Source: Symbiodinium sp. CCMP2592 (Eukaryota > Sar > Dinophyceae > Suessiales > Symbiodiniaceae). From it: 64,000 bases of DNA. A program made the position numbers and the translations under genes. Shown one piece after another: positions 1,412 to 33,189 of this stretch. Within the stretch, counting starts at the first letter, position 1, and the number at the start of each line of letters is the position of its first letter. The stretch is from NCBI GenBank assembly GCA_905221615.1, contig CAJNDT010001247.1, positions 503,827 through 567,826 of the forward strand. The letters are read 5' to 3'. A model generated the notes under the pieces. The model was given only the letters and a program-made list of their open reading frames with translations, did not search any database and was not told the DNA's origin.

Positions 1412-1472
1412 TCACATACAGGGGAAGGCTAAACCTGGGCCCAGGGGAAAGTTCACAGACATGACCTCACTT

Positions 1473-2663: not shown

Positions 2664-2714
2664 CTATGTCTGTAATATTTGAATGGGTTCATGCTGCCCC
2701 TGGTTGAAGCCCGG

Positions 2715-3368
2715 TTATAATGTCTGATGTTCTAACGGTCTGCTCATAAACAGGTGAGGATCAATCTGCATTTTGAAGACCTCGAGCATTCGGGCCTCCT
2801 CTGCACTCCAAGACATCGTGTCCATGATGGTTTTCCGCACAATGGGGCCCTGCTGATTTTCCATTGCCACCAATGGACTGGTCAGGGTGCCATGCACCAG
2901 GTGATACCGCGGAAGGTCCTCTCGGAACCCTGGCTTCAAGTACAGACACATGCCCCATCGCAGTTTGCTGGCCATAATCTTTCCGGTCTCGGGAATATAT
3001 ACAATCTCGCCAGTGTCCTCCTGCAGGTACCCTTGCGAGCAGTATGTGGGAGTCTCGTCGTAGAGTCGTTCCCAAACGAAAAGTCGAGCCTCTATGTTTT
3101 CTTCCTTCTGAATCTTTCCGAGCAGCTCCTTGAAGCTTTGTCGCTCTGCAGATTCTGCAAGAGAAGAACGCAAGATTGCATCTTTAGCATCCCAAGCTTT
3201 CGAAAGTCCTGCCTTTTTTAACGGTCTTGGTCTCGGGCCTGCCTGTGGAGCTTGTGCTGCAGCATTCACTCGTGCCTGAGGCTCTGAAGCTTGCTCTCTG
3301 TCCGGGCATTGGGCTGCCGGATGCCGGACAGTGTCTTGCTCATCTTCGGAGCTGGATGCAGGAAACAT
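2715..3368 (-). CDS. 5' exon-like frame of the same minus-strand gene; acidic/Pro-Ala N-terminus
   Basis: It starts at a true ATG (3,368) and encodes 217 residues ending at TAA (2,717-2,715). The N-terminus, MFPASSSEDEQD, is Ser/Asp/Glu-rich, followed by a Pro/Ala/Gln linker (residues 20-50). From about residue 55 the protein becomes mixed and folded-looking: FKELLGKIQKEENIEARLFV, then ERLYDETPTYCSQGYL and IPETGKIMASKLRWGMCLYL. The phrase 'YDETPT' followed by a region ending near KIMASK matches the N-terminal half of the family described for the next downstream frame, again from memory. The last residues before the stop may be intron read-through, as the next exon-like frame opens at 2,663. 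No signal peptide or membrane helix is visible. Confidence 0.68.
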   Translation of the reverse strand: MFPASSSEDEQDTVRHPAAQCPDREQASEPQARVNAAAQAPQAGPRPRPLKKAGLSKAWDAKDAILRSSLAESAERQSFKELLGKIQKEENIEARLFVWERLYDETPTYCSQGYLQEDTGEIVYIPETGKIMASKLRWGMCLYLKPGFREDLPRYHLVHGTLTSPLVAMENQQGPIVRKTIMDTMSWSAEEARMLEVFKMQIDPHLFMSRPLEHQTL

Positions 3369-3822
3369 GACCAGAAAGCACTGTCCCCGCTCTATCCTGG
3401 CTTCTGTCGTTACTGTTTGAAAGAACTAACAGTAACATGCTACCTCCTCTGTCACTGCTTTTCCTGTTAAAGACATACTTTTGAGGTGGGTTGTGCTGGC
3501 TTCGTGTCTCGATTCTACGAAGATCGATCTGGATACTGCAGCGGCCGGTTGGTGAGTGTAACATGTCTTAACTTGACTGGACTAAATCCTGGTTTACAGC
3601 AGTGCAGAACAATCACCAGAAGAGCGCCCACAACAGGCCTCCCAGGTTTGTCTTTGCAAAGACGCCTTCGACGAGAGACCTTAGAAAGCATGTGAGCACA
3701 TATCTTGAAGACTCTCTCTCCAGGCTATCAAGCAGTTCATACAGGGGTCGAAATAGTCTGCTTTCCTTGGTAGGGGTTCCAATTGCTGAACAAACTTTGC
3801 CCCCAGAACTGAGAAACTCCGT
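3369..3822. other. Upstream flank of the minus-strand gene, nothing recognised
   Basis: This stretch lies 5' of the ATG at 3,368. I see no coding frame longer than about 75 codons, no dinoflagellate spliced-leader acceptor I could name, and no repeat. It may hold the promoter or the start of a 5' UTR. Frames entering the N run are artefacts. Confidence 0.3.
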
Positions 3823-3922
3823 NNNNNNNNNNNNNNNNNNNNNNNNNNNNNNNNNNNNNNNNNNNNNNNNNNNNNNNNNNNNNNNNNNNNNNNNNNNNNN
3901 NNNNNNNNNNNNNNNNNNNNNN
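3823..3922. other. Assembly gap (100 N)
   Basis: Exactly 100 N characters between 'aaactccgt' and 'gacacaagg', the conventional placeholder for a gap of unknown length. Sequence on the two sides should not be assumed contiguous. Confidence 0.99.
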
Positions 3923-4012
3923 GACACAAGGCAATGGCTGGATGTTAAAAACTCCACACGCCTCTCAGGCTGTTAAGTATAAGATCGGGAAGGGCCACTG
4001 TCTCCATGTAAC

Positions 4013-4242
4013 AGCTCAGACATGCATGGCATAATTTTCAGGGAAGCTTAGAACTACTGGCAGGATCAACCATGTCGCATCTCCACAGAAGCTCAGACTA
4101 AGAACTCAGACTGTCCTGGTGTCTTGACTGCTGGACTCCCGGTGTGATAGCTCAGACATGCAAAGCTGCAGAGCTGAAATATCTTAATGGTTGAGGGAAG
4201 CATAGGACTGCTGGCAGGATCCATAGGTTGCATCTCTACAGA
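4013..4242. repeat. Diverged direct repeat, two copies
   Basis: The block starting AGCTCAGACATGCA at 4,013 recurs at 4,149. Both copies continue through AGGGAAGC-TAG-ACT-CTGGCAGGATC and CATCTC-ACAGAAG, with an insertion in the second. The copies are about 136 bases apart and no protein is implied. Confidence 0.7.
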
Positions 4243-4519
4243 AGGTAAGAAAGCACGTGTCTACGTGCCCTCGCTGCTGAACTCGGGCCATGCGTCAATG
4301 AGTCAAACAGTGCTCCCAACTCATGCAAACTTATGCAACGAAAGAGCAGGAACTGACTTGTGCTTCTGCCTGGATCATAACCTTCAGCTCCAACTGGGTG
4401 CTAACCAAATCCATTCTGACATGCAGACATTTTAAAGAACATGACGTCAACAACATCCATCACTGCACCTGACCCGCTGAGTTCAAGGCCAGTTCATGGT
4501 GGCGGCGAGAAAGACCACA

Positions 4520-4562
4520 TGTGTGCATGCGTGTGTGTGTGTCTGTGTGTGTGTGTGTGCGT
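4520..4562. repeat. GT microsatellite
   Basis: Interrupted GT dinucleotide run with CATGC and CT breaks. Confidence 0.9.
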
Positions 4563-4677
4563 GTCTGGGTGTCTGGAAGAATATCGACAAGGACCGAGGA
4601 CGACCACTGACCCTGTTGCTGGACACCCCCCCTCCACTCGACAAGTCTCTATATGTTCCTAACTAGGAACTGCTACT

Positions 4678-4727
4678 GCTAGTAGTAGTAGCAGTAGCAG
4701 TAGTAGTAGTACTAGTAGTAGTAGTAG

Positions 4728-4784
<57 letters not shown>
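4678..4784. repeat. Foldback trinucleotide microsatellite (TAG)n then (CTA)n
   Basis: TAG/CAG triplets on the left switch at about 4,729 to ACT/CTA triplets on the right, so the two halves are reverse complements. One strand could form a long hairpin. The encoded poly-Val/poly-Leu frames are artefacts. Confidence 0.92.
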
Positions 4785-4883
4785 ACCCCACATCCCAAAT
4801 GACCGAAACGGATCACACGAATGATGACTCCTAACAAGGGCCACCCTGGTCTAGGGTCACCCTTTGCACTTCCCGATATATGC

Positions 4884-4946
4884 TCATATGTATACATATA
4901 TGTATATATGTATATATATATATATACATATATATATACATATATA

Positions 4947-4998
<52 letters not shown>
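4884..4998. repeat. Compound microsatellite (TA)n-(TC)n
   Basis: Alternating TA with GTA/CA interruptions (4,884-4,948) passes directly into about 24 copies of TC (4,949-4,997). Confidence 0.93.
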
Positions 4999-4999
<1 letters not shown>

Positions 5000-5115
5000 G
5001 GCTGTATCGTTTTCGGATGGCAAGGCCTCGGCATCGATATAAAGCATACCACTACTGAGTATAGCATATATAATGTACTGAAATGCAGTGAAGTGACTAG
5101 TGACTTGACTAGTGA

Positions 5116-5319
5116 CTAGTGTGCAGCAGAAGCCTCAGATACAGAGAAATCACAACTCACACCTGCTGGCCTTGTGCTTCCGACGCGATCGGTCCTGTCT
5201 GCAAGCTTCTGCATCCAGTCATGATGCAACGGACAACTGACACATGTGTCGGACTCCATGATGGCCTTCTTCTTCTTCTTCTCCAACTCGGACCCTAAAG
5301 CAGCCTCGAAGTCGGACAT
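5116..5319 (-). CDS. Candidate small exon with acidic/Lys-rich start
   Basis: An ATG at 5,319 opens MSDFEAALGSELEKKKKKAI, then ESDTCVSCPLHHDWMQKLAD and further residues to a stop at 5,116. The DNA just upstream (about 5,410-5,430 on the minus strand) carries a related phrase, HDSMTIHISDLQGEEE, that resembles the HDSITIPMSDFE leading into this frame. This suggests duplicated exons. Composition is plausible for a gene, but the frame is short and no family is recognised. It lies on the same strand as its neighbours at 5,424-5,786 and 7,033-7,836. Confidence 0.35.
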   Translation of the reverse strand: MSDFEAALGSELEKKKKKAIMESDTCVSCPLHHDWMQKLADRTDRVGSTRPAGVSCDFSVSEASAAH

Positions 5320-5423
5320 GGGTATGGTAATGCTGTCATGCAGCCACGAAAAGAAAGACGTGCATCATGGCCTCTGTGCTCTCCTCCTCACCCTGCAAGT
5401 CGGAGATGTGTATGGTCATGCTG

Positions 5424-5786
5424 TCATGCACCCACGGAAGCACAAACATGCATATTGCGATGCAAGCTTTGCATGGCCTCCTGCGACACCAGTGAGATCG
5501 GCGACAGTCGGGCCGGCAGGGGTGCTGCTTTGGAAACTAAAACTGGTTTCCAAAGCGGCTGCTGTGGGGCAGCAGGCATTGGCTTCGGCCTTTGGGGTTT
5601 GGGTTGCCTGGCCTGTCCGGCCAGGCAACCCGAAGTCGGTCCCGCTGCTGGAGTCGGTCCGGAAAAAGTGTCGTGTGGAGGAGGGGTCTTCGGTGGAGGA
5701 GGGGGGGGTGGAACCGGGGGTGGGTATGGGACGTGGACGCCCAGCACTGGTGCAACCGGTGGCGGCCAGTTTGTCTCGGGATCCAT
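5424..5786 (-). CDS. Proline-rich exon-like frame with GPT motifs
   Basis: It starts at ATG 5,786 (MDPETNWPPPVAPVLGVHV). A poly-Pro tract follows at residues 20-38, then SGPTPAAGPTSG and QARQPKPQRPKPMPAAPQQP, with a stop after 120 residues. The GPT motifs are coded by the GGTCCGA/GGACCGA heptamer that is abundant throughout 1-16 kb. The frame is probably disordered and could be an exon of a larger low-complexity gene that includes 7,836-7,033. The opposite-strand frames over the same DNA look like shadows. No domain, signal peptide or membrane segment is visible. Confidence 0.35.
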   Translation of the reverse strand: MDPETNWPPPVAPVLGVHVPYPPPVPPPPPPPKTPPPHDTFSGPTPAAGPTSGCLAGQARQPKPQRPKPMPAAPQQPLWKPVLVSKAAPLPARLSPISLVSQEAMQSLHRNMHVCASVGA

Positions 5787-5830
5787 GGTTGCTACTCGGG
5801 CCCGGCTACACTGCTTGCTACTCGGGCCCG

Positions 5831-6180
5831 GCTACACTGCTGCTGCTACACTTCTACAGGATCTCTACTGACTAGAGCAAGGATCGGCCATGCTTGCTCG
5901 GGCCTCTTTTTTGTTGTGGAGATGCTGTGGCTACACTGCTGCTGCTACACTTCTACAGGATCTACTACTGACTAGAGCAAGGATCGGCCATGCTTGCTCG
6001 GGCCTCTTTTTTGTTGTGGAGATGCTGCGGCTACACTGCTGCTGCTACACTTCTACAGGATCTACTACTGACTACAGCAAGGATCGGCCATGCTTGCTCG
6101 GGCCTCTTTTTTGTTGTGGTGATGCTGCGGCTACACTGCTGCTGCTACACTTCTACAGTAGGATCTACTACTGACTAGAG
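5831..6180. repeat. 100-bp tandem repeat, about 3.5 copies
   Basis: The phrase GCTACACTGCTGCTGCTACA occurs at 5,831, 5,930, 6,030 and 6,130 (spacing 99, 100 and 100). The rest of each unit contains GCTCGGGCC and a T-rich CTTTTTTGTTGTGG block. Copies are nearly identical. Because 100 is not a multiple of three, the unit does not keep a reading frame. Confidence 0.95.
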
Positions 6181-6598
6181 CACCTGGAATTGGTTTTGGC
6201 ATTGGCCCAGAATACACAGACATGGAACTGTCAACTGCAGGAGCTGATGCTCTTAGGATCTTAGCAGTCTTAGCACCAGGAGAGCCAAATAGCACTGCAG
6301 AACTACATGCACAGGCAAACTCATGCCGAGTCAGAATGCAATGCACATGGAAGCTGTCAAGGCTCAAGACTCTGACTCTCACTGAGGACATGACGTTCTG
6401 AGGCAAGCGACGGCAGGAGATTCGGGCCCGGCCTTTTCAGAATCAATATTTGACGGCCCAAGGTCGGCCGTCAACTCACAATGCAATGCCGCTGGCAACT
6501 CTCAAGGCTCAAGACTCTGACTGTCACTGAGGACATGATGTCATGAGCTAAGGGATGAAACAAGCATTGGGCCAAGTCCTGGAACGAGTCTTACCATG

Positions 6599-6646
6599 AA
6601 TCAATCGATCAATCAATCCATCAATCTATCAATCAATCAATGAATC
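6599..6646. repeat. AATC tetranucleotide microsatellite
   Basis: A run of AATCAATC with G/C substitutions, ending at the ATGAATCATGG phrase. Nothing else is recognised between 6,180 and 7,030 apart from scattered TCGGNCC heptamers. Confidence 0.85.
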
Positions 6647-7032
6647 ATGGGCCATGGAGAGAAAATCTCTGCTAGTCGGTCCACGGTGCAATGCACAACC
6701 GAAGAAACACGCCAATGCTCAACCAGAGTCCCGGCCGGAGATGGTCCCAAGCATGCACAGAAGCAACATGCCGGATCACACTTCTCTTGGCGATCGCAGG
6801 CGCCACCAGCCGGAAACTGCTACATGATCGCTGGGAGACAGCCAGTCAGCGGCTTGCTGCTGTTGGGAAATCGGACCGAGAGCCGCACAGCGGCTGCTGT
6901 GCCCAAAGCGCCTGCCTCAGCCATGCAGTCCACCCCCCGAAAGCAGGAAAGACTATACCTATGCAGCAACATGTGAGGTCCTGCACATGCAAGTGCAACG
7001 ACGGCACTGTTTCCACATGCCAGGCGTCATGG

Positions 7033-7836
7033 TCACTGCATGTTAAGTTGCACCTGCTTTGGCGATGGCCGGTCTTCCAAAAGATGACCAAGGTTTGCAG
7101 GGGCCGCCTTAGCCTTGGCCTTGCCCTTCATTCGGCCCTTGCCCTTAGTCGCCTGAGTCGATCCCGCAGATGACGATGAGAAGTCGGGCTGATGCCAGAG
7201 ATGGTGCTGCAGCTGCCTGGGGGCCTTCTTTGGCCTAGCCTGGGGGGCTGCTGAAGTCGGTCCCGCAGACGGCGATGAGAAGTCGGGCCGACGATAAAGA
7301 CGGTGCTGCAGCTGCCTGGGGGCAGTCTTTGGCCTAGCCTTGGGTGCTGCTGAAGTCGGTGTCGAAGATGACGATGACTCATGTGTCTCCTCCTCTGACT
7401 CTGATGGCACGTGGCGTTGATGAAGATCATTCGGAGGATCTGCACGAAACGGCGATGGCTTTGCTCTGGGAGTCGATCCCGATGAAGGCTTGCCCTTCTG
7501 GTGTTGGCCTCTCTTGTGCTTGTTCTTTCTGTCTGCTGAAGTCGGACCGTTCTCTTCAGAAGGCAAAAAGATAGCCTCTCCTTTGCCGCTCTTGACCTTG
7601 TTCTTGCGGTCTGCTGAAGTCGGATGGTTCTCTCGAGGACGCAACATCTTTCGACCCCGAACCTTTCGAGTCTCGGTTACTCGTCTGCTTCGCCTGTTCT
7701 CTTCAGGTGGCAAAACGACAGCCTTTCCTTTGTCGCCCTTGCCCTTGTCCTCAGGGTCTGCTGAAGTCGGACCGTTCCTCCGAGGCAAAAAGATTGGCTT
7801 GCCAAAAGGGCACATGTGGCGGCCCGGCATTTGCAA
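7033..7836 (-). CDS. Lys/Pro-rich disordered protein with repeated GPTSA motifs
   Basis: The frame is open for 267 codons; the first ATG-like positions are at about 7,828. Upstream it is closed by a TAG, so it may be an exon. It contains repeated blocks: RNGPTSADPEDKGKG, ENHPTSADRKNKVKSGKG, ENGPTSADRKNKHKR, then two copies of a longer unit, TSAAPKARPKTAPRQLQHRL and TSAAPQARPKKAPRQLQHHL, and a basic tail (TKGKGRMKGKAKAKA). The repeats keep frame, which argues for coding. The protein is strongly basic and probably disordered, so nucleic-acid binding is a guess only. The GPTSA codons contain the TCGG(A/T)CC heptamer. No known domain is seen. Confidence 0.5.
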   Translation of the reverse strand: MQMPGRHMCPFGKPIFLPRRNGPTSADPEDKGKGDKGKAVVLPPEENRRSRRVTETRKVRGRKMLRPRENHPTSADRKNKVKSGKGEAIFLPSEENGPTSADRKNKHKRGQHQKGKPSSGSTPRAKPSPFRADPPNDLHQRHVPSESEEETHESSSSSTPTSAAPKARPKTAPRQLQHRLYRRPDFSSPSAGPTSAAPQARPKKAPRQLQHHLWHQPDFSSSSAGSTQATKGKGRMKGKAKAKAAPANLGHLLEDRPSPKQVQLNMQ

Positions 7837-7845
7837 GCGAGTGTG

Positions 7846-8780
7846 AATTACTCGTGTGCTTTGCTTCTACGGTCGTATATCCAGATTCGAGCCAATACTA
7901 CCAAGGCATGCAAAGACATCCAACAATCGACAACAGAGCAAATGCAGAGTAAAGAAGCCCGGGCCCAAGACAATCCGACCAGATCATGTGGCCCATGCAG
8001 TCACGGCCTGTTACGGATGAGGTTTTGACAGTCCGCCCTGACTCGGTCCGAGTGTTTTTAAACAGCCATGAGTCAGTGCCAATGAGTCGCTCGTCTCTCT
8101 CTGTCTCAGCTGCTGTGGTTGTGCACGAGCTGCAATCCGAACGCAAGACGCCATGCTCTGACTTCTCACCCTTGGACCATTGACTTTGGACCGAGTCGAA
8201 GCCTGCTGCAAAGCCTCTTCATTCTGCAACACTGGAACTAAGTTACACCGAAGCCTTGCCGTCAGTGTGGTGGGTAGTGCGAAAATGCGACCTGACGTGG
8301 CAAGGACTTGGATTCCCACCCATGCGACAGATCTGGGCTAGGATTCGATTCAATGAGTGTGGGACTGGAATCGAATTCGACCTGTAGTCGGTGATAGATA
8401 GGCTACCGGGATGCTGCCAGGCAAGGCACCCAAAAGAGATTGCCTGCAAAGAAGACACCAAACTCCTGGGACTCAAGCTGATCTGATCGATGTGGCCTCG
8501 AAAGTCAAAATCTCACTAGTCACACCGATGACATGAGCCTGCATTTTGCGAATCCAAGGCTTCGGCACTGCTTCTGTGAAGGAGTTTGGCCCTGCAACAG
8601 GGAACTGCAAAGAATAAGACGCAAGTCGAGGCAAGATGCAGTCTGTGGCAGCCTGCAATTACAACCTGTCCAAACTTTTTCAAGCTTGCACCAAGTCATG
8701 ACTTTGCAGCCAGCTGATCAAGGGCTGGGATTCCAATGAACTGCTCTTATGCGTCCCGCATGAACCGACCAACCGGAGTC
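7846..8780. other. Intergenic or intronic DNA, nothing recognised
   Basis: Short overlapping frames on both strands look like chance. TCGGNCC heptamers (for example CTCGGTCC near 8,042) continue. There are no RNA genes or long repeats. Confidence 0.3.
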
Positions 8781-8844
8781 CTAAGGCTTTTAAGCCTGAA
8801 GCCTTAAGCCTTAAGCCTTAAGCCTTAAGGCCTTAAGGCTTTAG
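8781..8844. repeat. Palindromic heptamer array (AAGCCTT)n
   Basis: Tandem AAGCCTT units switch to the complementary AAGGCTT reading around 8,830, giving a self-complementary stretch. A related run, (TTAAGGC)n, occurs at 17,132-17,160 inside telomere-like DNA. Confidence 0.85.
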
Positions 8845-8849
8845 GATCA

Positions 8850-9820
8850 AGGCACTAAGATAGCTCATGTCATTTAAAAAGCCCTATAGTTAGTTAGTCA
8901 CTCGGTCCATGCAGGAAAAAAAGGCCTACTTGCAGGGATCTCAACACCAAATGCTGCTACTCGGCTTCGCCGCATTCGGTCCCATCGGCTCCGCCGTCCT
9001 TGGCTGGACATGGAAAGTGTCACTGATGTCTCGAATGTCGTGATGATGCCATGGGAGGGTGACTGAAGTCCCATGTGAACAGGAAGTCACAGGCACGCTG
9101 ACTCATAATCAGATTGACTTGCTGGCCACGTGACGCCTTCGGTGACGATGCTGGCGGTGGGAACCTTGCATTCGGCCCGTACCTAGGCTGGCTGTTTCAA
9201 TTGAATGTGGTGTCACTGTGGATTGTGCCTGCTTGAGCGACCAAGCAACGCTTTCGGGATCACCGGCTTCTTGCTCACCGTCGACCTGAGGCTGCATACT
9301 CACTCCATTGCAAAATCAAGCTGCTCACATGTCAATTGGCATTCTGTCTGCTTGCTCCGAGCAACGGCGATGGGACCCTCGGCCGCTTCGGGTTCCTGGA
9401 TGTCTCGTGATAATTTGACATGTCACGACGAATACCTGCCGTGGCCTCGTCGAGCCACGACTTGGCACCGGAGCTCCCGGCGGCTGGAACCCCAGCCCCA
9501 GCCTTTAGAACTTGAGGATTGCAGTGGCCAAATGTGCAACCATTATATCAAAACAGCTGACCCTTTCCATGGCCTCTGGATGCACCTTTTGATCGTCCTC
9601 CTGGAAAGCCGGTGCCTGAGACGGTCGGACCCAAGCAATTTGGATCAATCAAGTCTTCAAGTAAAAAGTCTCCTGTTGCCAACTCCTATGTCTCTGTCTT
9701 CAGACCAAGGACGCTGCATCGGGCCCATCGCGACGATCTTCAGCAGCCGGGGATGCTGAATCGGGCCCCTCGGGCCGAGCTTGAGCAGATCGTGGTGCCT
9801 GTGCATCATGTGTGGAACAT
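8850..9820. other. Unassigned DNA with many TCGGNCC heptamers
   Basis: Heptamers such as CATTCGGTCC, CATTCGGCCC, GGTCGGACCC and ATCGGGCCC recur on both strands. A frame on the plus strand (9,205-9,759) is open for 184 codons but has no recognisable content and the opposite orientation to its neighbours. I do not call it. Confidence 0.3.
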
Positions 9821-9829
9821 TTCAGGAGC

Positions 9830-10660
9830 AGAGGCCCGCAAAGACAAGCCCGACCTTGTTGGCCTTTCCACGTGGTCCCGATGGCTCCTGCACAGTGAAA
9901 TTGTTTGAGGGCCCAAAGTTATCCAGCACCCTACGTGCATCCGAATAGAGGTATAGCGGCGTCCGCTTTTGTCTGCAACCCAACCACAACCCAATGTGTA
10001 TGGGAGTATAGGTATCGTGCCAGTCCTGGTCCGGGCTCCAATACAATGGTCCGTCGGGATCCTGCAATTGGAGCTTTGCTTCAGTGTCCGCAGTTATCTG
10101 CAACCCATAGAAGTGTACGACGTATGAAGTACAAAGGCAGGCGTTTGCGAGGGATCCTGCAAGCTGAACTTGGTTGAGGGTCCGCAGTCATCTGCAACAT
10201 AAAGTAGTCTTGAGTATACCGAGTATAGTGGCAGTCCTGAGGTGCAGAAGTACTACTCGGACCCGAGGTGGGATCCTGCAAGCTGAATTTGGTTCAGGGT
10301 TTGAAGTTATCCCCAACCCCAGGCTAGTCTTGAGTATACCGAGTATAGTGGCAGTCCTGAGGTGGAGAAGTAGTACTCGGACCTGCGGTGGGATCCTGCA
10401 AGCTGAATTTGGTTCTGGGTTTGAAATTATCCCCAACCCCAGTGGTGCATCCGAGTAGACCATCGAAGCAGTCCTGGGGCAGGACATCAGGCGGAGGGCC
10501 TGGCGGCGGACCAGGCGGCGGACCAAACGGCTGCGATCCAGCAGAAGTCGGGCCAGCCTGCGATTTTGGTTGATGCTCCGAAGTTACCCGTGACCCATCT
10601 AATAATGTAGTGGCAGTCCTCGTCCTCTGTGTCATCGTCGAAATCGGGCTCGACCGTGGT
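9830..10660 (-). repeat. Degenerate tandem repeat of about 120 bp, 5-6 units, with residual coding signal
   Basis: The clearest two units start near 10,205 and 10,325. They share AGTCTTGAGTATACCGAGTA, GTGGCAGTCCTGAGGTG, a CTCGGACC heptamer, GGGATCCTGCAAGCTGAA and TTATCCCCAACCCCAG. More diverged units extend left to about 9,830. On the minus strand each unit encodes a phrase like VGDNFKPRTKFSLQDP-GPS, or DNFGPSNNFTVQEPSGP, and PQDCHYTRYTQD. A unit of about 40 codons would keep frame, but several units are shifted relative to each other, so the array is a repeat protein in decay or exons separated by short introns. Confidence 0.7.
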
Positions 10661-10683
10661 GCGCTTGTAGCCACTGGCTTCAT
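10324..10683 (-). CDS. Exon-like frame entering the 120-bp repeat array; Pro/Gly-rich
   Basis: It starts at ATG 10,683 (MKPVATSAPRSSPISTMTQR) and holds QAGPTSAGSQPFG, a (GPPP)3 tract, VLPQDCFDGLLG and the best preserved copy of the repeat phrase (VGDNFKPRTKFSLQDPTAGP), stopping at a TAG or TGA in the next unit. The GPTSA phrase matches the one at 7,033-7,836, suggesting related genes or one large gene. In another frame the first 60 codons read DDDTEDEDCHYI, also repeat-like, so the true frame is uncertain. Confidence 0.35.
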   Translation of the reverse strand: MKPVATSAPRSSPISTMTQRTRTATTLLDGSRVTSEHQPKSQAGPTSAGSQPFGPPPGPPPGPPPDVLPQDCFDGLLGCTTGVGDNFKPRTKFSLQDPTAGPSTTSPPQDCHYTRYTQD

Positions 10684-10699
10684 CCCTCAGGTCTAGAGT

Positions 10700-12180
10700 C
10701 TAAGTCTAAGTCTAGAGTCCAGAGCTTGGGGCATAGAGGCGGGTTTAGGATTTGGCCGAGCCGCCTGGCGAATGCCATCTTCTCGTTGTAAAACGAAACC
10801 AGGTTGTGCACCGTTTTTCGAAGATGCTGATCGTACATTCGGTCCCACCCATGCCAGCCTGAGATTTTCGGCGGTCACACTCGGGCCATCCATGCAAGGC
10901 ACTTTGCTGGGACAGTCTGCTAGGCCGGCACTTTCAGTAACCAAGCTGCTCTTGGTCCATACGGCCGAGCACAACTTGTTGATGTGCTCGTTGACGTAAT
11001 CGGACCCTACTCCACTGTGCTCGTATAGACCGTATAAGTCCTGAGGTGGTGATGGGATGGAGATTGTAAAGAACTTTCTGTTGTGGTTTCCAACAAAGTC
11101 TGCATTGTAGATACAAACAAACGAATCCCAATCTCATCAAGCATCGGACCACGTGTGGGCATCGGTGATCTCGAGCTGGTCCAAACACCATGCAAGGTGC
11201 GGTGTCTCCTGCCACACCTCCGATGCCTCCACCTCCTCGCAATGGTCCTGAAGCATCGTGCTTTCTGTTGTGGCTGTTCCTGTTTCACTTCAACTGACCC
11301 GTCCTCGAACCACCTTGCACCGCGGTCGCCGCGTTGAGGCGGCCTTCTATGGTGCTCGGCCCGAAGGAAGACGAAGATCTTCTTGAAGCATTCGGACCAG
11401 AAAGCCCTGGCTTGCAGTTTGGGGGAATGCTTAATTATTGTGTTATAGACACTTGTCTAGGAACCATCAGGGAAAGTTGCTCCCATAAGTGCTGCCCGGT
11501 GGCGAGAACTCGCATCGGGCCCCTCTGCTCATCCTCTGCGCTTTGCGCAGCATTCGGTCCGCTACCTCTACAACCATGTCTCGGGCCCGAGGATGGCCAT
11601 GGCACAGCAGAGCGAGGCATTCCTGAGGTGAGAAAGCACGTGACTCGAGTGACTCAGAGTATACTTCAATTAAGACCACAATGCAAGTGGGACACACAGT
11701 TAAGTCAAGGCACGGTCCAGTTGATCATGTCGCCATTGGTGGCGTTCAGGACCCATGCCACGTAGTAGTGAATTGTTTTCACTCTTAATCGGACCTCGAC
11801 ACTCCATTAATGTCCATGTCATGTGCACATACATTACACACACCTACGTGCATTGGTGCATATTAATGCAATGCCACGCGGCCATCTGGTTGCGCCACGT
11901 CGGCGCCACATTCGGGCTGGGGGCCCCGGAAAAATCAATGGCTCCAAAGGAGCCCCGCCGTCTAGCGGCATTCGGACCTCACAGTAGGGCTTTGCATTCA
12001 GTGTCACCTTTGTGACTCGACACTTACATGTCGGGCCTGCCGCCAGCCCGCGGCTGATGAACTCCCCTGGGTAGCGGGAGAAATCCATCCTGCCAGTGTC
12101 AAGGAACCCTTATCAAACAAACAAATGTAAGTTTCACAGCAGCAGTCCACACCAGAATATAATGTGCAAGCCAAGACACG
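10700..12180. other. Unassigned DNA
   Basis: I see no convincing gene. Frames over 90 codons exist on both strands but overlap in conflicting ways. TCGGNCC heptamers are frequent (for example ATTCGGTCC near 10,840, ATTCGGACC near 11,392 and 11,970). The phrase GCATATTAATGCAATG near 11,860 is AT-rich but not a known signal. Confidence 0.3.
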
Positions 12181-12186
12181 CTGAGG

Positions 12187-12238
12187 AATTCGGGCCCAGG
12201 AAGTAATTCGGGCCCAGGAAGTAATTCGGGCCCAGGAG
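12187..12238. repeat. 18-bp tandem repeat x3 built around TCGGGCCC
   Basis: AATTCGGGCCCAGGAAGT is repeated at 12,187, 12,205 and 12,223 with period 18. On the minus strand this reads as SWARIT repeats within a 146-codon frame (12,444-12,004), which I leave uncalled because its other parts look random. Confidence 0.9.
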
Positions 12239-12594
12239 GAGGCAAGCACCTCAATGAAGCTGCCGACAATAAGAGATTTCAGAGCAAAATGCCTGTAGGA
12301 CCAGGAGAATGCCCAGGCACGTGGACCCTGACTGATGCGGGCCGCTTCGGACCCAGAAAGCACCTCAGTGAAGCTGCGAAAACGACCCTTGCCAGGAGCC
12401 AGTGCTCTTGAAACAAAATCAGAATTGTTCACTTCCAGCCGCATACCATCATCAACTCGGAAAGCCGAGATGCAGCCCAGACAAATGGCTCAAGGCTTCC
12501 CGCAGGCGGCAGCTATGGCTTCTGTCACCACCCGGCCTTTGAAGCCCTTGAAAATGTTCGTAGATAATGTCCTAGGAAGCCCAATAAGGGTAAA

Positions 12595-12825
12595 TCTCAA
12601 ATGTCGCAAAGGCGACCCGGTGATTACTTGGCTGCTACATGCCACGAGACGAAATATTTCAATTTAAAGTGTCGCAAAGGCGAGCTAGAAATTACATATT
12701 TAACATTACACCACTGCGACCTAGAAATTACTTCAGATACATGCCACGAGGGGATGAAATGTCCCTAAGGCTACCTAGGGACCTAGTGATTACTTACTTG
12801 GCTGCTGCTACATGCCAAGGTCGAT
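12595..12825. repeat. Degenerate tandem repeat of about 70-100 bp
   Basis: TGTCGCAAAGGCGA occurs at 12,602 and about 12,670. TAGAAATTAC or TAGTGATTAC and CTACATGCCACGAG recur at about 12,620-12,640, 12,720-12,750 and 12,785-12,815. The order of the three phrases is kept, so these are diverged tandem units. Confidence 0.7.
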
Positions 12826-13154
12826 GACATCTTAAGACAATGAGGCGCTCACGACCGGACAATCCAGGCAAGGCATATGGTTGGGAGTCTGATAAATGGT
12901 CTGGAGATGTTCATGCCTCCTGCAATGTCATGACATGTCCTCATAAGCTGGATTTCGGGCCGTGCAAGAATCAAGAAGTGCTGCAATCATGCAAACTTCC
13001 GCTGACCAAGGGCAACAGCAGGACATGTGCCTCGCTCGCAAGATGGAAGTCGACTTGGACCTGTTTGCATTACCGTCAAATTACATTACATATCCACAAT
13101 GTGGCTCGGCGGATAAGTTCAAGGCCGCCTGATGATGGCCACGTAGAGGATGAG

Positions 13155-13262
13155 TCTGTGTCTGTGTGTGTGTGTGTGTGCCTATACATGTGTGTGTGTG
13201 TGTCTGTGCATATGTGTGTGTGTGTGTATGTGTATGCATGTACGTGTGTGCATGCATGTGTG
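13155..13262. repeat. GT microsatellite
   Basis: Long interrupted GT run with CAT/CTA breaks. Confidence 0.9.
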
Positions 13263-13970
13263 CTTTTGTCTCTGGGACTGTGTGTGCATACCAGTACCAC
13301 AACATCAAGCCTTTGACTCTAGACTAAGCTAGACTCTAAAGCTAAAGCCACCGCTCATGATATTCGGGCTGTGTTAACACCACTACCACAAACTCCATCG
13401 CAAAAGCCATCGCTTCTTATATTCGGGCCGATATATGACATTACTGATACTGCCTACTGATACCGGAACAGTAGAGTTGCCCGTGGGTACCCACAAGCCT
13501 CGTGCGTTACTACCATGCACAAAGCACAACAGCATTGCCTCTGAAAACCAAGCAGCTCGCAACAGTCGATCAATGCACAACACAAGGCAGGCCAAAGCTC
13601 AACCAACCAGGGTCACTGACTCACAATGCACAACAGAAGAAGGCAGCCAATGCTCAGGAATCATTCAAGTTTAAACTGCACCATTTCCAGAACACAACAT
13701 GTCACAAGGCTCCGGCACAGCACAGCATGATGTGCATGATGCTGGAATGTGAATCTCAGGAGTCTGCGGCCATCTGCAGGCGGTCGCTCCTGCAGGCGGA
13801 CGTGTGCAGAGCATTTTCAAGCTGCAAACAGATACAGTGTTTGCTGTACTGTTCTGTACTTGGACAGCTGCTACTGAGCCTTAATGCTTAATGTTTTGAT
13901 ACCAACACGAACAGATAGCACACCAGCGGCCATCCAAATTTCCTTGTGCATAATGTAAACTGTAAAATTC

Positions 13971-14000
13971 CATTAATGATTAATGATTAATGATTAATGG
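13971..14000. repeat. TAATGAT heptamer run
   Basis: About four units of ATTAATG. A similar ATTAATC-based run occurs at about 14,983-15,035. Confidence 0.85.
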
Positions 14001-14687
14001 TTGGAAGGATCCAGAGCCCAAACACGGTAGTCCCGACAGGATAAATCAGTAAACAGGGATGCAGCCTTAGGCACTGAAGCTGGTCTAAACTTGACACTTG
14101 TGATCATCAACCTGAGTCTCAATGATTTGGGTTTACTAATGGAACGTACTATGGCAGTCGGCTTGTGCAAATTTCTCCATCGGATAAGACCATTTCAATG
14201 TTCTACTATTATACTGTTATTTCAATTGGTCAGAACCAGAATGGTCCATGATATCCGATGTCTCATCACGAAACCAAGCTGAAATCCAAAGGATGCAGGA
14301 GGAGAAAGCCAGGGAAGTAAAGTCCGATCAACCTGCTCAGGCCTGTGGCAGGCGATGGCGAGGGCAGCACCTGCAAAAGGGAAAGGCTGGCTGCACCTTA
14401 TCGCTATGGAGGAGGCAATGCTGTAAGTGTACGTATCTTCTGTAGTTCAATTGAAGGGGGCAACAATCAAAAAGTTGTTGCCACTCAGTGGAGTCCACCA
14501 TGTAAGTTAAGTAGAGACAATGGCAGTGGTATGGTATGTGCGAATGCATTTGCAGGCATGTTGGGTTTGGGGCTGGTCTAACCTAGTGTTGACTGATAGC
14601 ACTGGTGAAACCTTTTTCCTCGAGTTGGCTAGCATCGCCGCGGGAAGATCTCGGGCCAATGGCGAACTCGGGCCAAGATGATCGGAA

Positions 14688-14951
14688 TCATGTGCTGCCC
14701 TTGCCTTTGCCATTGTCCTTGCCTTTGTCCTTGCCCTTGTCCTTGCCCTTGTCCTTGCCCTGGTCCTTACCCTTACCCTTCGGGCCCACAGGCCTAGGTG
14801 TAAAGGGCTCCACCCTGCCTGCAGCCTTTGGAGCAGTCGGACCCACCACATTCGGATCCACCATATTCGGACGCACAGGCGCTGGTGAAGTCGGCGGCGG
14901 CAAAGGAGGACGAGTCGGGGGCCTTAGCACCTCAGGGAGTAGAAGGAGCAA
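14688..14951 (-). CDS. Exon-like frame: Pro-rich then KDKGK repeats
   Basis: The minus strand reads a Pro-rich part (VLRPPTRPPLPPPTSPAPV), NMVDPNVVGPTAP, a linker, and then a perfect charged repeat of the form GKDKGKDKGKDKGKD, ending GKGKGST at a stop. The DNA of the repeat is a 12-bp period (GTCCTTGCCCTT on plus). The first codons are Leu-rich and may be intron. Composition matches the other low-complexity exons on this strand. It may belong to the same gene as 15,735-15,436 and 16,250-15,954, both upstream on the same strand. Function unknown. Confidence 0.4.
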   Translation of the reverse strand: MLLLLPEVLRPPTRPPLPPPTSPAPVRPNMVDPNVVGPTAPKAAGRVEPFTPRPVGPKGKGKDQGKDKGKDKGKDKGKDNGKGKGST

Positions 14952-15435
14952 ACTCTGTCACAATGAAAACACTTGTGTTGTATCATTAATCATTCATTAA
15001 TCATTAATCATAACTGATTACTGATTACTGAGCACTGGTTACTGAGAACCGGAATTTGTTTCGTCAAGCACCCTGCCTGCTCCACGGGCATGTTGAAGTA
15101 GGAAGCCACCTGCTGCTGGTAGTAGTCCGGTGTGATGTTCCCATAGGCCTTAGTGTAGCAAATCGTAGATGGCATGGTTAAGCCTTTTATGCCTATGCTT
15201 CACTTACTAGACTATCTTACTATGCTCAGGGTTGGCCTATGGAGTATGTGTTCTGAAACAACCCAAGCTGCGAGCTGCTGAGCGAGGGAAAACAAGATCC
15301 GCGTGCAGCCGAGTTCGTCTCGCAATCGGGCCTCTTCCGCCGGACCCTGAGTTAGTTGCAAGGAAGCAACACAAAATTGCTATCATAGCATACACGACTA
15401 CTGATGAATCTACTCATCTAGTCCCTTCTTCGGTC

Positions 15436-15735
15436 CTAAGCAATATGACACAAACAGCTAACTAAAATCACAAGCCAGGCTGCCACACTCCACCCTGTCC
15501 GTGGAACGGCTTCCTCTGGATTCAACTCGGGCCCACGCGACCCCGACGAAGCAGCCGAGCCAGCCTTCGGACCCTTCGGGGTTGCAGGCTCGGGCAAAGC
15601 CTTCGGGCCCGGGGTAGCCCGACGCTCCTGCTGCACCCTCCGCTTCTGGGATCGCTTGGAATTCGGGTCCTCGAATTGTGCTTGGCTTGGCTTAGCAACT
15701 TTTTGCCATGGTGTGCTTTGAATACTTTTTTTACC
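15436..15735 (-). CDS. Exon-like frame with basic and Gly-Pro-rich segments
   Basis: The frame opens after a TGA at about 15,740 and reads KKSIQSTPWQKVAKPSQAQF, EDPNSKRSQKRRVQQERR, then TPGPKALPEPATPKGPKAG and SGSRGPELNPEEAVPRTGW before a hydrophobic tail and stop at 15,436. The tail (LVILVSCLCHIA) is probably intron. There is no ATG at the start, so it is likely an internal exon. The GP dipeptides again coincide with TCGGNCC heptamers. The basic patch KRSQKRRVQQERR could be a nuclear-localisation signal; no domain is recognised. Confidence 0.42.
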   Translation of the reverse strand, partial: GKKSIQSTPWQKVAKPSQAQFEDPNSKRSQKRRVQQERRATPGPKALPEPATPKGPKAGSAASSGSRGPELNPEEAVPRTGWSVAAWLVILVSCLCHIA

Positions 15736-15953
15736 TCAACTCAGGGAACCGACAAGAACCACAGAGGCAGATGAATCCAGACAAAGAGACCGGGGCCATG
15801 AAGTTGGAGCCCTTCTTGTTGCCCAATCGGACCTGCCGATAATGCATACATGGCATACATCTCACATTCTTTGTAATAAGTATAAGTAAGTACTAACTTA
15901 TCGACCTTCCTTTTCCTGATGTGGCATGAACGAAGCCCAAAGCAGAAATGAAA

Positions 15954-16250
15954 TCATATAGGCCCAGAAGCCGATGGATTCTCCTCCTTCTTCTTCTCCT
16001 CCTTCTGCTTGTCGTCCTTCTCCTTCTTCTCGGGCCCAGGGTCCTTCTTCTTCTCGCCCTCTTTGCGGCCGTCCTTCTTCTGGTCCGTTTTCTTGCCAAC
16101 CTTCTTCTTGTCATCGTCTTTCTTGTCGGACTTCTTCTTCTTCTTATTTTTTTCGTCCTTGTTCTTCTTCTTCTTCTTCTTTTTGTCCTCCTGCTGGGAC
16201 TCCTCCTCCTCCTCCGGGGGATCCTCATCGAACTTTGAAGAAGAGGCCAT
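15954..16250 (-). CDS. Highly charged Lys/Glu-rich N-terminal exon
   Basis: The ATG at 16,250 (context GCCATGG) starts MASSSKFDEDPPEEEEESQQ, followed by about 65 residues of almost pure Lys/Asp/Glu (KKKKKKKNKDEKNKKKKK and similar), then PGPEKKEKDDKQKEEKKKEE and a stop at 15,954. An acidic start followed by a polybasic region suggests a disordered nuclear or nucleolar protein, but low-complexity DNA (CTT/CTC triplets on plus) could give the same result. An in-frame extension to 16,301 lacks an ATG at its beginning. I consider it the best start of the minus-strand unit that continues through 15,735-15,436 and 14,951-14,688. Confidence 0.45.
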   Translation of the reverse strand: MASSSKFDEDPPEEEEESQQEDKKKKKKKNKDEKNKKKKKSDKKDDDKKKVGKKTDQKKDGRKEGEKKKDPGPEKKEKDDKQKEEKKKEENPSASGPI

Positions 16251-16299
16251 GGCAAAAGAATTTGAATCGGACCGAGGGCAACTAGTCGGACCAATACTC

Positions 16300-17131
16300 A
16301 CTTAGTCACTACTAAGTCACTACTAATCACTGACCATAGTCGATCAAAAGGGCAACTAGGGCCCAGGGGTTTTGAGTCGGATCACTCACTAGTCATAATC
16401 ACATAGTCATAGTCGATCAACCGATGATGTGGTCATTTACGGCTTCCTAGGTCCTATATGCAGCTTTTCAAAGCACTCCGAATTGCCCCTTGGCCTTCCC
16501 CAGGCTTCGTGGCTTGAAGCCCAATGCTGCACATGACATGAATCTTCCAGTGCCGTTTAGAGGTGAGGGTTGAATAAAGGGGTCGTGGCTTGTATTTGGG
16601 TCTTATGTTTTTTCGAAGGACCCATAAACTAGGACCTGAACCGTGAGGTGGTGCCATCCCAGAATCCCCTCTGACATTATGCCAATTAGATAGGGATATC
16701 CCACTCGGGAGTATGTGTTTGGGTGCTTCTGGGGCTGCTGATTTCCCTCCTACCAAGCCAGAAAGAAGCCCGCACAGGTTTTATTTTCGGGCTCAGGATT
16801 AGCATCATCATACAACTCACCCTTCCTATAATAAAAAAATGCCCGCAGAACCCCCTTGAAAAACACCTCAACCCCTTCACCCATGATCCGTGAAATGCCA
16901 GGGTGAAGACTCCTGATCCCTAATCCCGTCGCCGATCCCCTAATTATAGAGAACTACCCAGAACTCCGAATCCATTCAGGTCTGCCCAGCACCTCACCCG
17001 GCCCCGTTGACCCGAACCCAAACATCCCAAACCCGGGTGGCACCTTCTCCGGGCGACGGCGTGCTGCATGGCGGTCCGGGTCTCCACAATTCAGGGTTAA
17101 GGGTTTGGGATTAGGGTGGAGGGTGCAAAGG
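16300..17131. other. Gene-poor transition into telomere-like DNA
   Basis: ACTAGTCA/CACTAAGTCAC short repeats occupy 16,290-16,430. From about 16,900 the sequence becomes CCCTAA/TTTAGGG-like but degenerate. No supported gene; frames at 16,454-16,880 on minus have no recognisable content. Confidence 0.4.
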
Positions 17132-17640
17132 TTTAAGGCTTAAGGCTTAAGGCTTAAGGTTTGGGGTTATTTAAGGATAAACAAATGGGGCTGAGGGCCC
17201 TGGGAGCTAATCCTAGGGTTAAGGGATTAGGCACGAGGGTCGAGGGTTTAGGGTTTGGTTTAAGGCTAACAAGGAAATTGAGGATGAACAGACGGGGTTG
17301 AATAAAATGATATAATATAACAAATACCGACAGTGAAAACTAATGTCAAGGTTCAGGCTTAGATTAGGGTTGAGTGTCAAGGGTTTGTAGTTTACGGTTT
17401 GTGGTTTGAGAATTAAAGACTAAAAAGAAAGGTTCGGTTACTTAGTTAAAAGCCTTTAGGAGGGACTTTTATTTTATTATTAGGGCTTTTAGGGGCTACG
17501 GCTACGGCTAGGGCTAGGGCCAGGGTTTAGGGCAAGATGTTTGGGTGTTAAGTCCTAGTTGACACCCTGAACTCTGCCCCAAACCCTAAACTTGACCCTG
17601 AACCCTTGACCCTTAACTCCTGGACCCTAGCCCTAAGCCC
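17080..17640. repeat. Degenerate telomere-like DNA, TTTAGGG sense then CCTAAAC sense
   Basis: GGGTTTAGGG-like words run to about 17,540, then CCCTAAAC, ACCCTGAACCC and CCCTAGCCC words take over, a change of strand. Includes the (TTAAGGC)n run at 17,132-17,160. Confidence 0.75.
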
Positions 17641-17662
17641 TGAACCCTTAACCCCGAAACAA

Positions 17663-18239
17663 CAGCCTCGTCATGCAGAAGCCACAGCCCGAAAGCTGTG
17701 ACAGCCACAGCCCTCGGGCTGTGACGTGCAGTCCGAAGACTGCGCTAGCCACAGCCCAAGGGCTGTGACACCGCAGTCCGAGACTGCGGTAGCCACGACC
17801 CGAGGGTCGTGACAGCCACAGCCCGAGGGCTGTGACACCGCAGTCCGAAGACTGCGGTAGCCACGACCCGAAGGTCGTGACAGCCACAGCCCAAAGGCTG
17901 TGACAGCCACAGCCCGAGAGCTGTGACGCCGCAGTCCGAAGACTGCAGTAGCCACGACCCGAAGGTCGTGACAGCCACAGCCCGAAGGCTGTGACAGCCA
18001 CAGCCCAGGGCTGTGACGCCGCAGTCCGAAGACTGCGGTAGCCACAGCCCAAAGGCTGTGACAGCCACAGCCCGAAGGCTGTGACACCGCAGTCCAAAGA
18101 CTGCGGTAGCCACGACCCGAGGGTCGTGACAGCCACAGCCCGAAGGCTGTGACAGCCACAGCCCGAAGGCTGTGACGCCCCAGTCCGAAGACTGCGGCAG
18201 CCACGACCCGAAGGTCGTGACATTTGCATGACGAGGCTG
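17663..18239. repeat. Array of 24 short hairpins bracketed by a 15-bp inverted repeat
   Basis: CAGCCTCGTCATGCA (17,663-17,677) and its exact reverse complement TGCATGACGAGGCTG (18,225-18,239) enclose 24 consecutive hairpins (17,683-18,219). Three stem types occur: A, CACAGCC/GGCTGTG (12 copies); B, CCGCAGTC/GACTGCGG (7); C, CACGACC/GGTCGTG (5). Order on plus is AAB ABC ABC AABC AAB AABC AABC. The usual loop is CGAA (TTCG closed by C-G when read on minus), with CGAG, CAAA, CAAG, CTCG, CAG or CGA variants. Spacers depend on the neighbours: ACAGC before A after A or C, ACA/ACG between A and B, TAGC (once CAGC) after B. All three minus frames are open for over 180 codons, which the stop-poor repeat explains, so it is not evidence of a protein. 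Function unknown: a structured RNA, a foldback element or a protein-binding array are all possible. Confidence 0.95.
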
Positions 18240-18305
18240 AGAAACCCCACCAAAATCCCCAAATCCCCAAAACCCAAAACCCTGCCCCACCGAAAACAAA
18301 CCCGC

Positions 18306-18675
18306 AAAGTCCCGAAACCCTGCCCAAGCTAAACCCTAATCCAACCTAAACCCCCCAAAGTCCCGAAACCCTGCCCAAGCTAAACCCTAACCCAACCTAA
18401 ACCACACAAAGTCCCGAAACCCTGCCCAAGCTAAACCCTAACCGTTAACCGTAACCTAACCTAAACCACCCAAAGTCCCAAACCCTGCCCAAGCTAAACC
18501 CTAACCTAACCTAAACCACCCAAAGTCCCAAAACCCTGCCCGAGCTAAACCCTAACCTAGCCTAAATCACCCCAAGTCCCAAAACCCTGCCCGAGCTAAA
18601 CCCTGGCCCTAACCTAACCTAAACCACCCCAAGTCCCATAACCTAAACCACCCCAAGTCCCAAAACCCTGCCCGA
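18306..18675. repeat. Tandem repeat of about 50-60 bp, 7 copies, telomere-derived
   Basis: The words AAAGTCCC(G/A)AAACCCTG, CCCAAGCTAAACCCTAA and CCTAACCTAAACCACCC recur in order at roughly 18,306, 18,357, 18,410, 18,472, 18,524, 18,578 and 18,633-18,660. Units contain CCCTAAAC and start right after the hairpin array. Confidence 0.9.
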
Positions 18676-19226
18676 GTCGGGCCTGGGGGGGGATGACCGC
18701 GGCCAGCGCCAGGAACTTTAGGGTTAGGAGGGTTCAAGGCTTTGTTGAAAGTTTAAAGTTTAAAGGGTTTTCAGGACTTCGGGTTAGGGGGATTCGGTGG
18801 GAAGTTTGAGGTTTAGGACTAGGATAATCGGACCCTCGAGCCTGAAGTCTGCGAGGCTGTTCAAGACGAAGTAAACTACTGTATTGAATATAACTATATT
18901 AGTAAATTAATATCATCTAGGAATCTAGGATCTATACCTATAATCGGGCCTGGGGCATGATGATCAATCGGGCCTGGGGGGGGTGGGGGGGGATGATCAT
19001 GGGCATGATCATCCTCATGCCGGGGACATGCCTTAGGCTGCCGGTGTCAAGCCTTACCCTAATCCCTAAAGCCTCAACCCCTTCGACCCTGCGGACTTCC
19101 GTCGCGCGCCCATTTGGGCCTTCCGGAGCGGTGCTCTACGGGTAGTCGGGGTGAAACTGAAAACCTACGGGCACACCGGACGGGAGGAACTGCCCATCTC
19201 GGGTGCCAAAAGGGGAGTCTGGGGTC
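18676..19226. other. Mixed telomere-like and GC-rich DNA
   Basis: Contains three TCGGGCCTGGGG phrases (18,676, about 18,944 and 18,968), an AT-rich island (18,870-18,940) and G runs. No supported gene. Confidence 0.4.
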
Positions 19227-20789: not shown

Positions 20790-20899
20790 ACCCCCCTTTG
20801 AAGGATCCTACAGTGCCCTCACCGAAGCTTTAGGTTGAAGCTTCGGCTTTGAGTTTCAGGTGCCCAAATAGTAGAGTTTTAGGAAAATGGTTTTTGGAC

Positions 20900-21993: not shown

Positions 21994-22117
21994 TACTTAA
22001 AGGGTCGTGGGACTTAGAAACTCGGATTATAATAACGGCAACTATACTTATAATTACTTATAACCCCACTTGAGGTACTTATAACCCTACTTACTAAGTC
22101 CCATGATCCGCCAAGTA
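21994..22117. mobile_element. Foldback element FB1 (TCATGGGACTTAG family)
   Basis: Left end TACTTAAAGGGTCGTGGGAC pairs with right end GTCCCATGATCCGCCAAGTA. The interior carries TTATAACCCCACTTGAGG and its imperfect complement. No coding capacity. Confidence 0.85.
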
Positions 22118-22119
22118 AA

Positions 22120-28540: not shown

Positions 28541-28664
28541 TACTTAAAGGGACATGGGACATAGTAACTAGGGTTTTAACTAAGGTAACTAGACTTATAA
28601 TTACGTATAACCCCATTTAAGGTACTTATAACCTTACTTACTAAGTCCCATGATCCTCTAAGTA
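28541..28664. mobile_element. Foldback element FB1
   Basis: TACTTAAAGGGACATGGGAC pairs with GTCCCATGATCCTCTAAGTA. Confidence 0.88.

Positions 28665-33188: not shown

Positions 33189-33189
<1 letters not shown>

Follow-up and report, generated by a model that had tools for sequence, protein, structure and literature searches.

The 64,000-nucleotide stretch of Symbiodinium sp. CCMP2592 DNA analyzed here (the window; C1247:503827-567826) contains a tandem array of short hairpins that belongs to a giant mobile element and lies close to its right end. The array consists of 24 head-to-tail units of 21-23 bp each, and its stems are of three types, arranged in the order A A B A B C A B C A A B C A A B A A B C A A B C. 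This order suggests growth by repeated four-hairpin blocks, and a 91-bp unit, equal to four hairpins, is among the several periods that Tandem Repeats Finder called for the array. Hairpins with at least 7 perfect base pairs and a loop of 3-6 nt numbered 19 in the array, against a mean of 0.18 and a maximum of 2 in dinucleotide shuffles (n = 1000). The 24 hairpins with three stem types claimed in the original prediction were thus recovered, as was the perfect 15-bp inverted repeat reported to enclose them, the sequence of which is absent elsewhere in the window when up to 2 mismatches are allowed.

The stems had been described as perfect or near-perfect. Pairing is indeed kept, but a C.A combination, which is a U.G wobble on the minus strand, occupies the second of the nine pairs in all 17 A and C units, and units 1, 3, 11, 12, 16 and 23 contain further non-Watson-Crick positions, so that not all stems are perfect. 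The three stem types differ from one another by compensated changes at several pairs. On the minus strand TTCG is the commonest loop, yet with 13 of 24 units it accounts for just over half of them rather than for "most"; the others read CTCG (4), TTTG (3), CGAG, CTTG, TCG and CTG (1 each). Changes were found at 14 of 96 loop positions and at 12 of 432 stem positions (p = 2.6e-5), a rate per base approximately fivefold higher in the loops. Both strands folded far better than shuffled sequences (z = -26.6 for the minus strand and -22.2 for the plus strand). At the gathering score Rfam gave 0 matches in the window, with only sub-threshold matches around the array, and no tRNA was found in the window.

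Three overlapping stop-free frames of 196, 224 and 226 codons run across the array on the minus strand, as would be expected of a repeat that encodes protein. All three frames are open, however, because the minus-strand units contain no stop triplet; 91 bp does not divide by three, which moves each repeat into a new frame, and the 21- and 22-bp units shift the frame as well. We regard a protein-coding repeat as very improbable.

We searched the 1.098-Gb assembly (5383 contigs of up to 2.4 Mb) with 601 bases around the array and compared 10 kb around each of the 22 other matches. Among the 23 matches obtained, 17, including the query locus itself, cover 598-601 bases at ∼100% identity on different contigs (family 1), and 6 match at 72-74%. 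All 16 other near-identical copies continue leftward past the 15-bp inverted repeat for ∼4.7 kb, to the edge of the compared sequence. Rightward, 15 of the 16 end together at window positions 19056-19080, whereas one (L089) diverges earlier; the shared terminal sequence, ...TTAGGCTGCCGGTGTCAAGCC, ends 814 bp to the right of the 15-bp repeat. The proposal that this repeat marks the ends of a mobile element was therefore rejected. The 16 sequences with the common right end, the window included, have 15 distinct kinds of right flank; L082 and L088 share theirs and were counted as one insertion. Whole-match identity of the copies is 97.1-99.7% with gaps included, and the copies are very young because substitutions alone amount to only 0.00-0.21% over 5.2 kb. 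These copies belong to a giant element with inverted ends that moved recently, and the array is a fixed module of it, set 0.8 kb in from its right end. The "multi-hairpin mobile element" considered originally comes nearest to this among the options then listed, except that the array is a module within a giant element and not an element of its own; a local satellite, the alternative offered at the time, is contradicted by the other copies and by the fixed place of the array in a dispersed element.

The 21-bp right end, used as a genome pattern, gave 28 exact and 7 one-mismatch matches; at up to 3 mismatches there were 64, compared with 9 for a reversed control. On 11 contigs (C29, C37, C236, C757, C902, C913, C1247, C1813, C3001, C4974 and C5006) two copies of this end, exact or with 1 mismatch, lie in inverted orientation, and the array accompanies one of them, so that terminal inverted repeats of the kind carried by DDE transposons are present. 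The paired ends are 28.2-77.2 kb apart, a spacing that includes any nested insertions and gaps, and the pair on C1247 itself (446311 and 522879) spans 76.6 kb. One family-1 array was found per giant element, at one end only.

Window positions 1-3822 recur at full length at 14 other places in the genome, and 3305 bases of them at one more. They are present in both 77-kb pairs (C1247 and C5006) and were not found on the nine other paired-end contigs, where gaps could hide copies; this segment may mark a long form of the element or may be a nested repeat. Its interpretation as outer flank, raised by the lack of a match in L102 and L103, was rejected, as element sequence continues beyond the 12-kb gap in C5006. 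Copies of the element differ by large internal deletions or insertions. On C4980 (505866-508438), 2.6 kb separate the equivalents of window positions 6025 and 3822, compared with ∼14 kb in C5006, and on C1698 (9607-39980) ∼30 kb separate those of 3923 and 3822, compared with 12.2 kb in C5006. Contigs C5196, C4556, C3768, C479, C583, C152 and C1980 also carry stretches that match part of the giant element (L102), mostly at 67-74% identity; they probably represent a related, older element family.

At the right junctions, TA occupies positions 2-3 and 7-8 in all 15 distinct flanks. A junction pattern that itself requires TA-NNN-TA, with 0 matches in its control, recorded this motif next to every one of the 35 ends that are exact or differ at one position. 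Eighteen of these ends, 16 with the array and two on C5237 (described below), are of the array-side kind, YTANNNTA with variable NNN; the other 17 are of the opposite kind and always read [C/G]TAGGGTA outwards, that is, TACCCTA in the orientation of the element. The 7-mers beside the two ends are unlike in 9 of the 11 array-bearing pairs, C1247 and C3001 having TACCCTA on both sides, and they are also unlike in the C5237 pair. Given the constant left-side bases, the true left edge of the element could be farther outward, in which case a duplication of the target there is possible.

These unequal bases, judged from the ends alone, suggest integration by a tyrosine recombinase. If the ends defined by the pattern are the real ends, the recombinase would act on a circle in which inverted arms surround a 7-9 bp core, and one junction would keep the core of the element and the other that of the target. 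A search for the tyrosine recombinase domain PF00589 returned 66 genome matches, none of them on the 11 paired-end contigs; the scores cover 145 of 267 candidates, and a gene that has diverged or is split could have escaped notice. A tyrosine recombinase inside the element was thus sought and not found within this scope. Several long and strong phage-integrase matches lie on C5051, which looks like a bacterial contaminant in the assembly. Polinton/Maverick elements have a protein-primed DNA polymerase B, integrase and capsid genes and make a 6-bp target duplication. Pfam gave no match above the cut-off for any of 30 open frames, of which 26 come from the element; ∼46 kb of the C5006 copy lay outside this coverage.

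Five of the six weaker genome matches (L096, L097, L098, L100 and L101) constitute a second family of arrays. Its stems are ACCACGGTC/GACCGTGGT, GCCACGACC/GGTCGTGAC and GCCAAAGCC/GACTTTGGC, its commonest loop is CGGA, and it shares the 91-bp four-hairpin plan with family 1. The copies L096-L098 share 99% identity as far as a sharply defined right end. In this family the array lies ∼1.1-1.7 kb from the right end. One copy, L101 (848-6886), is complete: it measures 6.0 kb, has inverted ends CGGGTTGGGATTT and an 8-bp duplication, CGACACGA, on both sides, and contains a hairpin array and a long TAC microsatellite. From these features family 2 looks like an ordinary terminal inverted repeat transposon, with ends unlike those of family 1. 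Outside the arrays, blastn detected no DNA shared between families 1 and 2 except one 76-base match. The sixth weaker match, L099 (family 3), is a solitary locus whose units are partly decayed; used as a genome query it retrieved only the 17 family-1 arrays, at 72%, and no second copy of its type. By eye, the enclosing 15-bp inverted repeat was not seen in family 2 or L099. The array thus recurs in different mobile DNA, namely in two families and at one solitary locus.

Hairpin-rich DNA is familiar from dinoflagellate organelles, and an excerpt of PMC2151934 describes the mitochondrial intergenic DNA of C. cohnii as rich in close, short, G+C-rich inverted repeats, which would accord with the array being a nuclear copy of such DNA. 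The flanks are mobile element in all 17 copies, however, and diverged arrays occur in other contexts; we find this origin hardly credible.

Features of the window are collected in Table 1.

Table 1. Features of the giant element and its surroundings (window coordinates)
Feature	Position	Strand	Remarks
Right part of giant element	1..19053	+	Repeats of 3923-19056 and 1-3822; window starts between the ends at C1247 446311/522879
100-N scaffold gap inside element	3823..3922	.	∼12.2 kb in copy C5006 (115398 to 127603)
15-bp inverted repeat, left arm	17663..17677	+	Exact in all 16 other family-1 copies
Hairpin array	17681..18221	-	24 hairpins, 9-bp stems, built from 91-bp four-hairpin repeat; commonest minus-strand loop UUCG
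15-bp inverted repeat, right arm	18225..18239	-	Perfect match to left arm
51-bp tandem repeat with CCCTAA-like words	18298..18617	+	Between array and element end
Single palindrome, 10-bp stem	18991..19014	.	∼40 bp from right end
Right terminal inverted repeat TTAGGCTGCCGGTGTCAAGCC	19033..19053	+	Inverted partner at C1247:446311
Junction with target, YTANNNTA (here TTACCCTA)	19054..19061	+	Flanks diverge from here; 15 distinct
MITE-like elements	21995-22137, 28542-28684, 48621-48763, 54809-54951, 55771-55903, others		Right of the giant element

Telomere-like words do lie outside the array, as first stated, but they are not specific to its borders: degenerate TTTAGGG repeats occur at many sites in the window, TTTAGGG being named as the dinoflagellate telomere repeat in an excerpt of PMC11453091. 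Long TAC/GTA microsatellites are found both inside the element (4680-4784) and outside it (33189-33285). Just beyond the right end, a 414-codon open frame on the minus strand (19563-20807) has repeated G-E-x-L-P motifs and no Pfam match, and further right there are many copies of an inverted-repeat family of ∼120-140 bp that resembles miniature inverted-repeat transposable elements (MITEs) and has ends like TACTTGGAGGATCATGGGACTTAGTAA. A reverse-transcriptase-like fragment at 41929-42387 was recognized by our own reading and has no Pfam match. This fragment and the TTTAGGG repeats are suggestive of a dinoflagellate source, an assignment to which the absence of the dinoflagellate spliced-leader motif from the window lends no support. 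In searches beyond the assembly, the A-unit pattern had one exact match, in a Bacteroidetes metagenome-assembled genome (L001), which was set aside as chance, there being no array around it. A 16-base stem pattern matched seventy viral contigs once each, as chance would lead one to expect of so short a pattern; a 20-base pattern had no match in viral sequences, and a plasmid search gave none.

The 16 other family-1 arrays keep all 24 units, as do the 17 copies with the window counted, and differ from the window at two sites. One is an extra loop base in unit 5, present in 8 of the 16; the other is considered below. We aligned ten of the 11 four-hairpin blocks cut, read on the minus strand (four from family 1 and three each from families 2 and 3). 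In these blocks 97.2% of 358 cells pair, and 16 of 36 pairs show changes on both sides. None of 500 shuffles reached these values, and when the partner was slid only 22-55% of cells paired, with 0-3 double-changed pairs. Loops and mismatches were counted in 60 units (24 from family 1, 20 from family 2 and 16 from family 3). The rows left out were 1 of 21 in L096 (a truncated unit at the edge), 4 of 20 in L099 (one AT run and three weak units) and 18 in L101, and one L099 unit was shifted by one base. The minus-strand loop is UNCG in 44 of the 60 (UUCG in 13/24 units of family 1, UCCG in 17/20 of family 2 and UUCG in 14/16 of family 3), whereas none of the 60 plus-strand loops is UNCG or GNRA. 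UUCG closed by C-G is known as an exceptionally stable RNA tetraloop. Transition-type mismatches appear as G.U on the minus strand in 43 cells, compared with 6 on the plus strand, and in 17 compared with 6 when distinct stems are counted (n = 27), an excess that we consider suggestive only.

We estimate a probability of roughly one half that the array acts as a structured RNA of the minus strand, containing UNCG hairpins and transcribed inwards from the right end of the element. A minus-strand structured RNA was among the roles first considered, and it gains support from the compensatory stem changes in related arrays and from UNCG as the commonest loop. The transcript would start near the right end and run leftward into the element, on the minus strand of the window, and it would carry 20-24 short hairpins, mostly UNCG-capped, that fold locally during synthesis. 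Such a leader would most likely protect or mark the element's own RNA, by blocking exonucleases or by recruiting a protein that binds hairpins, in the way of tandem hairpin tags, and would thereby help the expression or the spread of the element. Selection would then act on pairing and loop type and not on the letters of the stems.

Several observations weigh against this reading. Each strand folds much more stably than shuffled sequence, yet in the predicted global minimum many units are paired with other units and the fold is not one of 24 separate hairpins. The second site that varies within family 1 is a stem base, the loop-nearest right-arm base of pair 9 in unit 11: it is A, as in the window, in 8 copies, G in 7 and deleted in 1, and with A the pair is C.A on the plus strand and becomes U.G when read on the minus strand. 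The related copies and the covariation of stems between families mostly bear out what had been predicted for the array, with the reservation that uncompensated changes occur in units 1, 3, 11, 12 and 23 of family 1 and in nine non-transition mismatch cells of family 3, and that L099 has the most broken pairs of all arrays. Because the family-3 blocks and one family-1 block are in a different unit-type register, the 16 double-changed pairs represent far fewer independent events, and a measure of further pair types did not exceed shuffles (497 of 500 as high; 500 of 500 within family 1). For families 2 and 3 the unit finder accepted only units with 6 or more of the 9 pairs, which favors paired ones. 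Sixteen of the 60 loops are not UNCG, 11 of them among the 24 units of this element, and UUCG and UCCG differ between families by one change. The wobble excess is partly due to one inherited position, pair 2 of the A and C units, and as separate events it amounts by eye to ∼9 compared with 6. The conservation of the stems is partly recent homogenization, since the linkers are conserved too. Finally, C5237 carries a twelfth pair of ends (85623-86293), 0.65 kb apart, in the usual inverted outward orientation and with no family-1 array match. Two adjacent insertions were considered and dropped as its explanation, the outward orientation being that of full elements; a short internally deleted copy is likelier, and the array may then not be needed in cis.

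Some of these points would be expected if the array were a passenger, a palindromic minisatellite carried by the element, in which template switching from arm to arm (quasi-palindrome correction) produces the covariation and 91-bp amplification homogenizes the rest. Such switching can carry a change from one side of a hairpin to the other. The growth of the array in 91-bp units, the uncompensated stem changes, linkers as invariant as the stems and the short end pair without an array match fit such a satellite, and the CTCG loop of unit 2 is the exact inversion of another loop, CGAG, as expected from switching within a hairpin, which suggests that some such event has occurred. It offers no reason, however, for UNCG on one strand in 44 of 60 units, though inheritance explains part of this, nor for the recurrence of related arrays near the right end of a second transposon family; the constancy of 24 units in all 17 copies also speaks against it, but carries little weight in copies so young. 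We consider a passenger satellite, the main rival of an RNA role, possible, with some doubt.

A site used at the DNA level would consist of subterminal dyads bound by a recombinase or transposase, or of cruciform DNA that joins the ends. En/Spm and Ac have subterminal arrays of transposase-binding motifs, and the arrays described here are subterminal in two families. The same loop motif would serve a DNA hairpin, because plus-strand CGNA is the complement of UNCG, and CGNA loops could form stable DNA hairpins; this too weighs against an RNA. A protein would, however, conserve its half-site, whereas several half-sites occur here and it is mainly complementarity that is kept. With one family-1 array per element, only one end would have the site unless the other has diverged, and the ends of families 1 and 2 differ while their arrays are related. 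We therefore judge a DNA-level site unlikely.

Returning to the structured RNA, we tentatively propose, as a possibility, that giant integrating elements of dinoflagellate-type genomes carry near one end a selected RNA module that is transcribed inwards, consists of ∼20-24 hairpins with mostly UNCG caps and passes between unrelated mobile elements. If so, the module would parallel in nature the tandem hairpin tags that are engineered, would suit the protection, localization or packaging of the element's RNA, and would add a new kind of component to the cis-acting repertoire of eukaryotic mobile elements. The module also provides a handle: it recurs in separate transposons with pairing largely kept, and it predicts the strand, start region and structure of a transcript. 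Elements of 28-77 kb with short inverted ends, near-identical copies and unequal flanks are, in our judgment, unusual in eukaryotes, and the literature matches listed included no such giant element in dinoflagellates and no such arrays in nuclear mobile elements.

Among known systems, Starship and Crypton elements use a tyrosine recombinase, and Starships are very large. The giant element shares with Starships its very large size and may share with both the unequal flanks seen in 9 of 11 pairs and a short common TA-NNN-TA core; it differs in its hairpin array and in that no tyrosine recombinase domain was found in it among the 145 of 267 candidates scored. En/Spm and Ac also have short motifs, partly palindromic, arrayed close to a transposon end, but there the sequence of the motif is kept, whereas here the pairing is kept while the motif changes, and an array was found at one end only. 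In phaeovirus elements of Ectocarpus, inverted repeats likewise flank the core of a circular attachment site with minimal target homology, and the insertions are similarly interpreted, in an excerpt of PMC13236599, as integration of a circle with its core between inverted arms; in contrast, no viral gene was recognized in the giant element, and its core is TACCCTA/YTANNNTA where that of the phaeoviruses is CC. The inverted repeats of dinoflagellate mitochondria are G+C-rich as here, with stems longer than 6 nt and gaps no longer than 5 nt, but they are organellar, and the part of PMC2151934 available to us describes no tandem array or tie to a mobile element. The repetitive hairpin-forming elements (RHE) of sponge and other mitochondrial genomes are also short hairpins, sometimes in tandem; according to the portion of PMC2800124 available, the blue15 and yellow18 stems differ by complementary substitutions, and loops vary more than stems, as they do here (14/96 compared with 12/432). 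RHE are mitochondrial and scattered, whereas the present arrays lie in dispersed copies of mobile elements in a 1.1-Gb assembly with contigs to 2.4 Mb, and form strict tandems of 20-24 hairpins with mostly UNCG loops on one strand.
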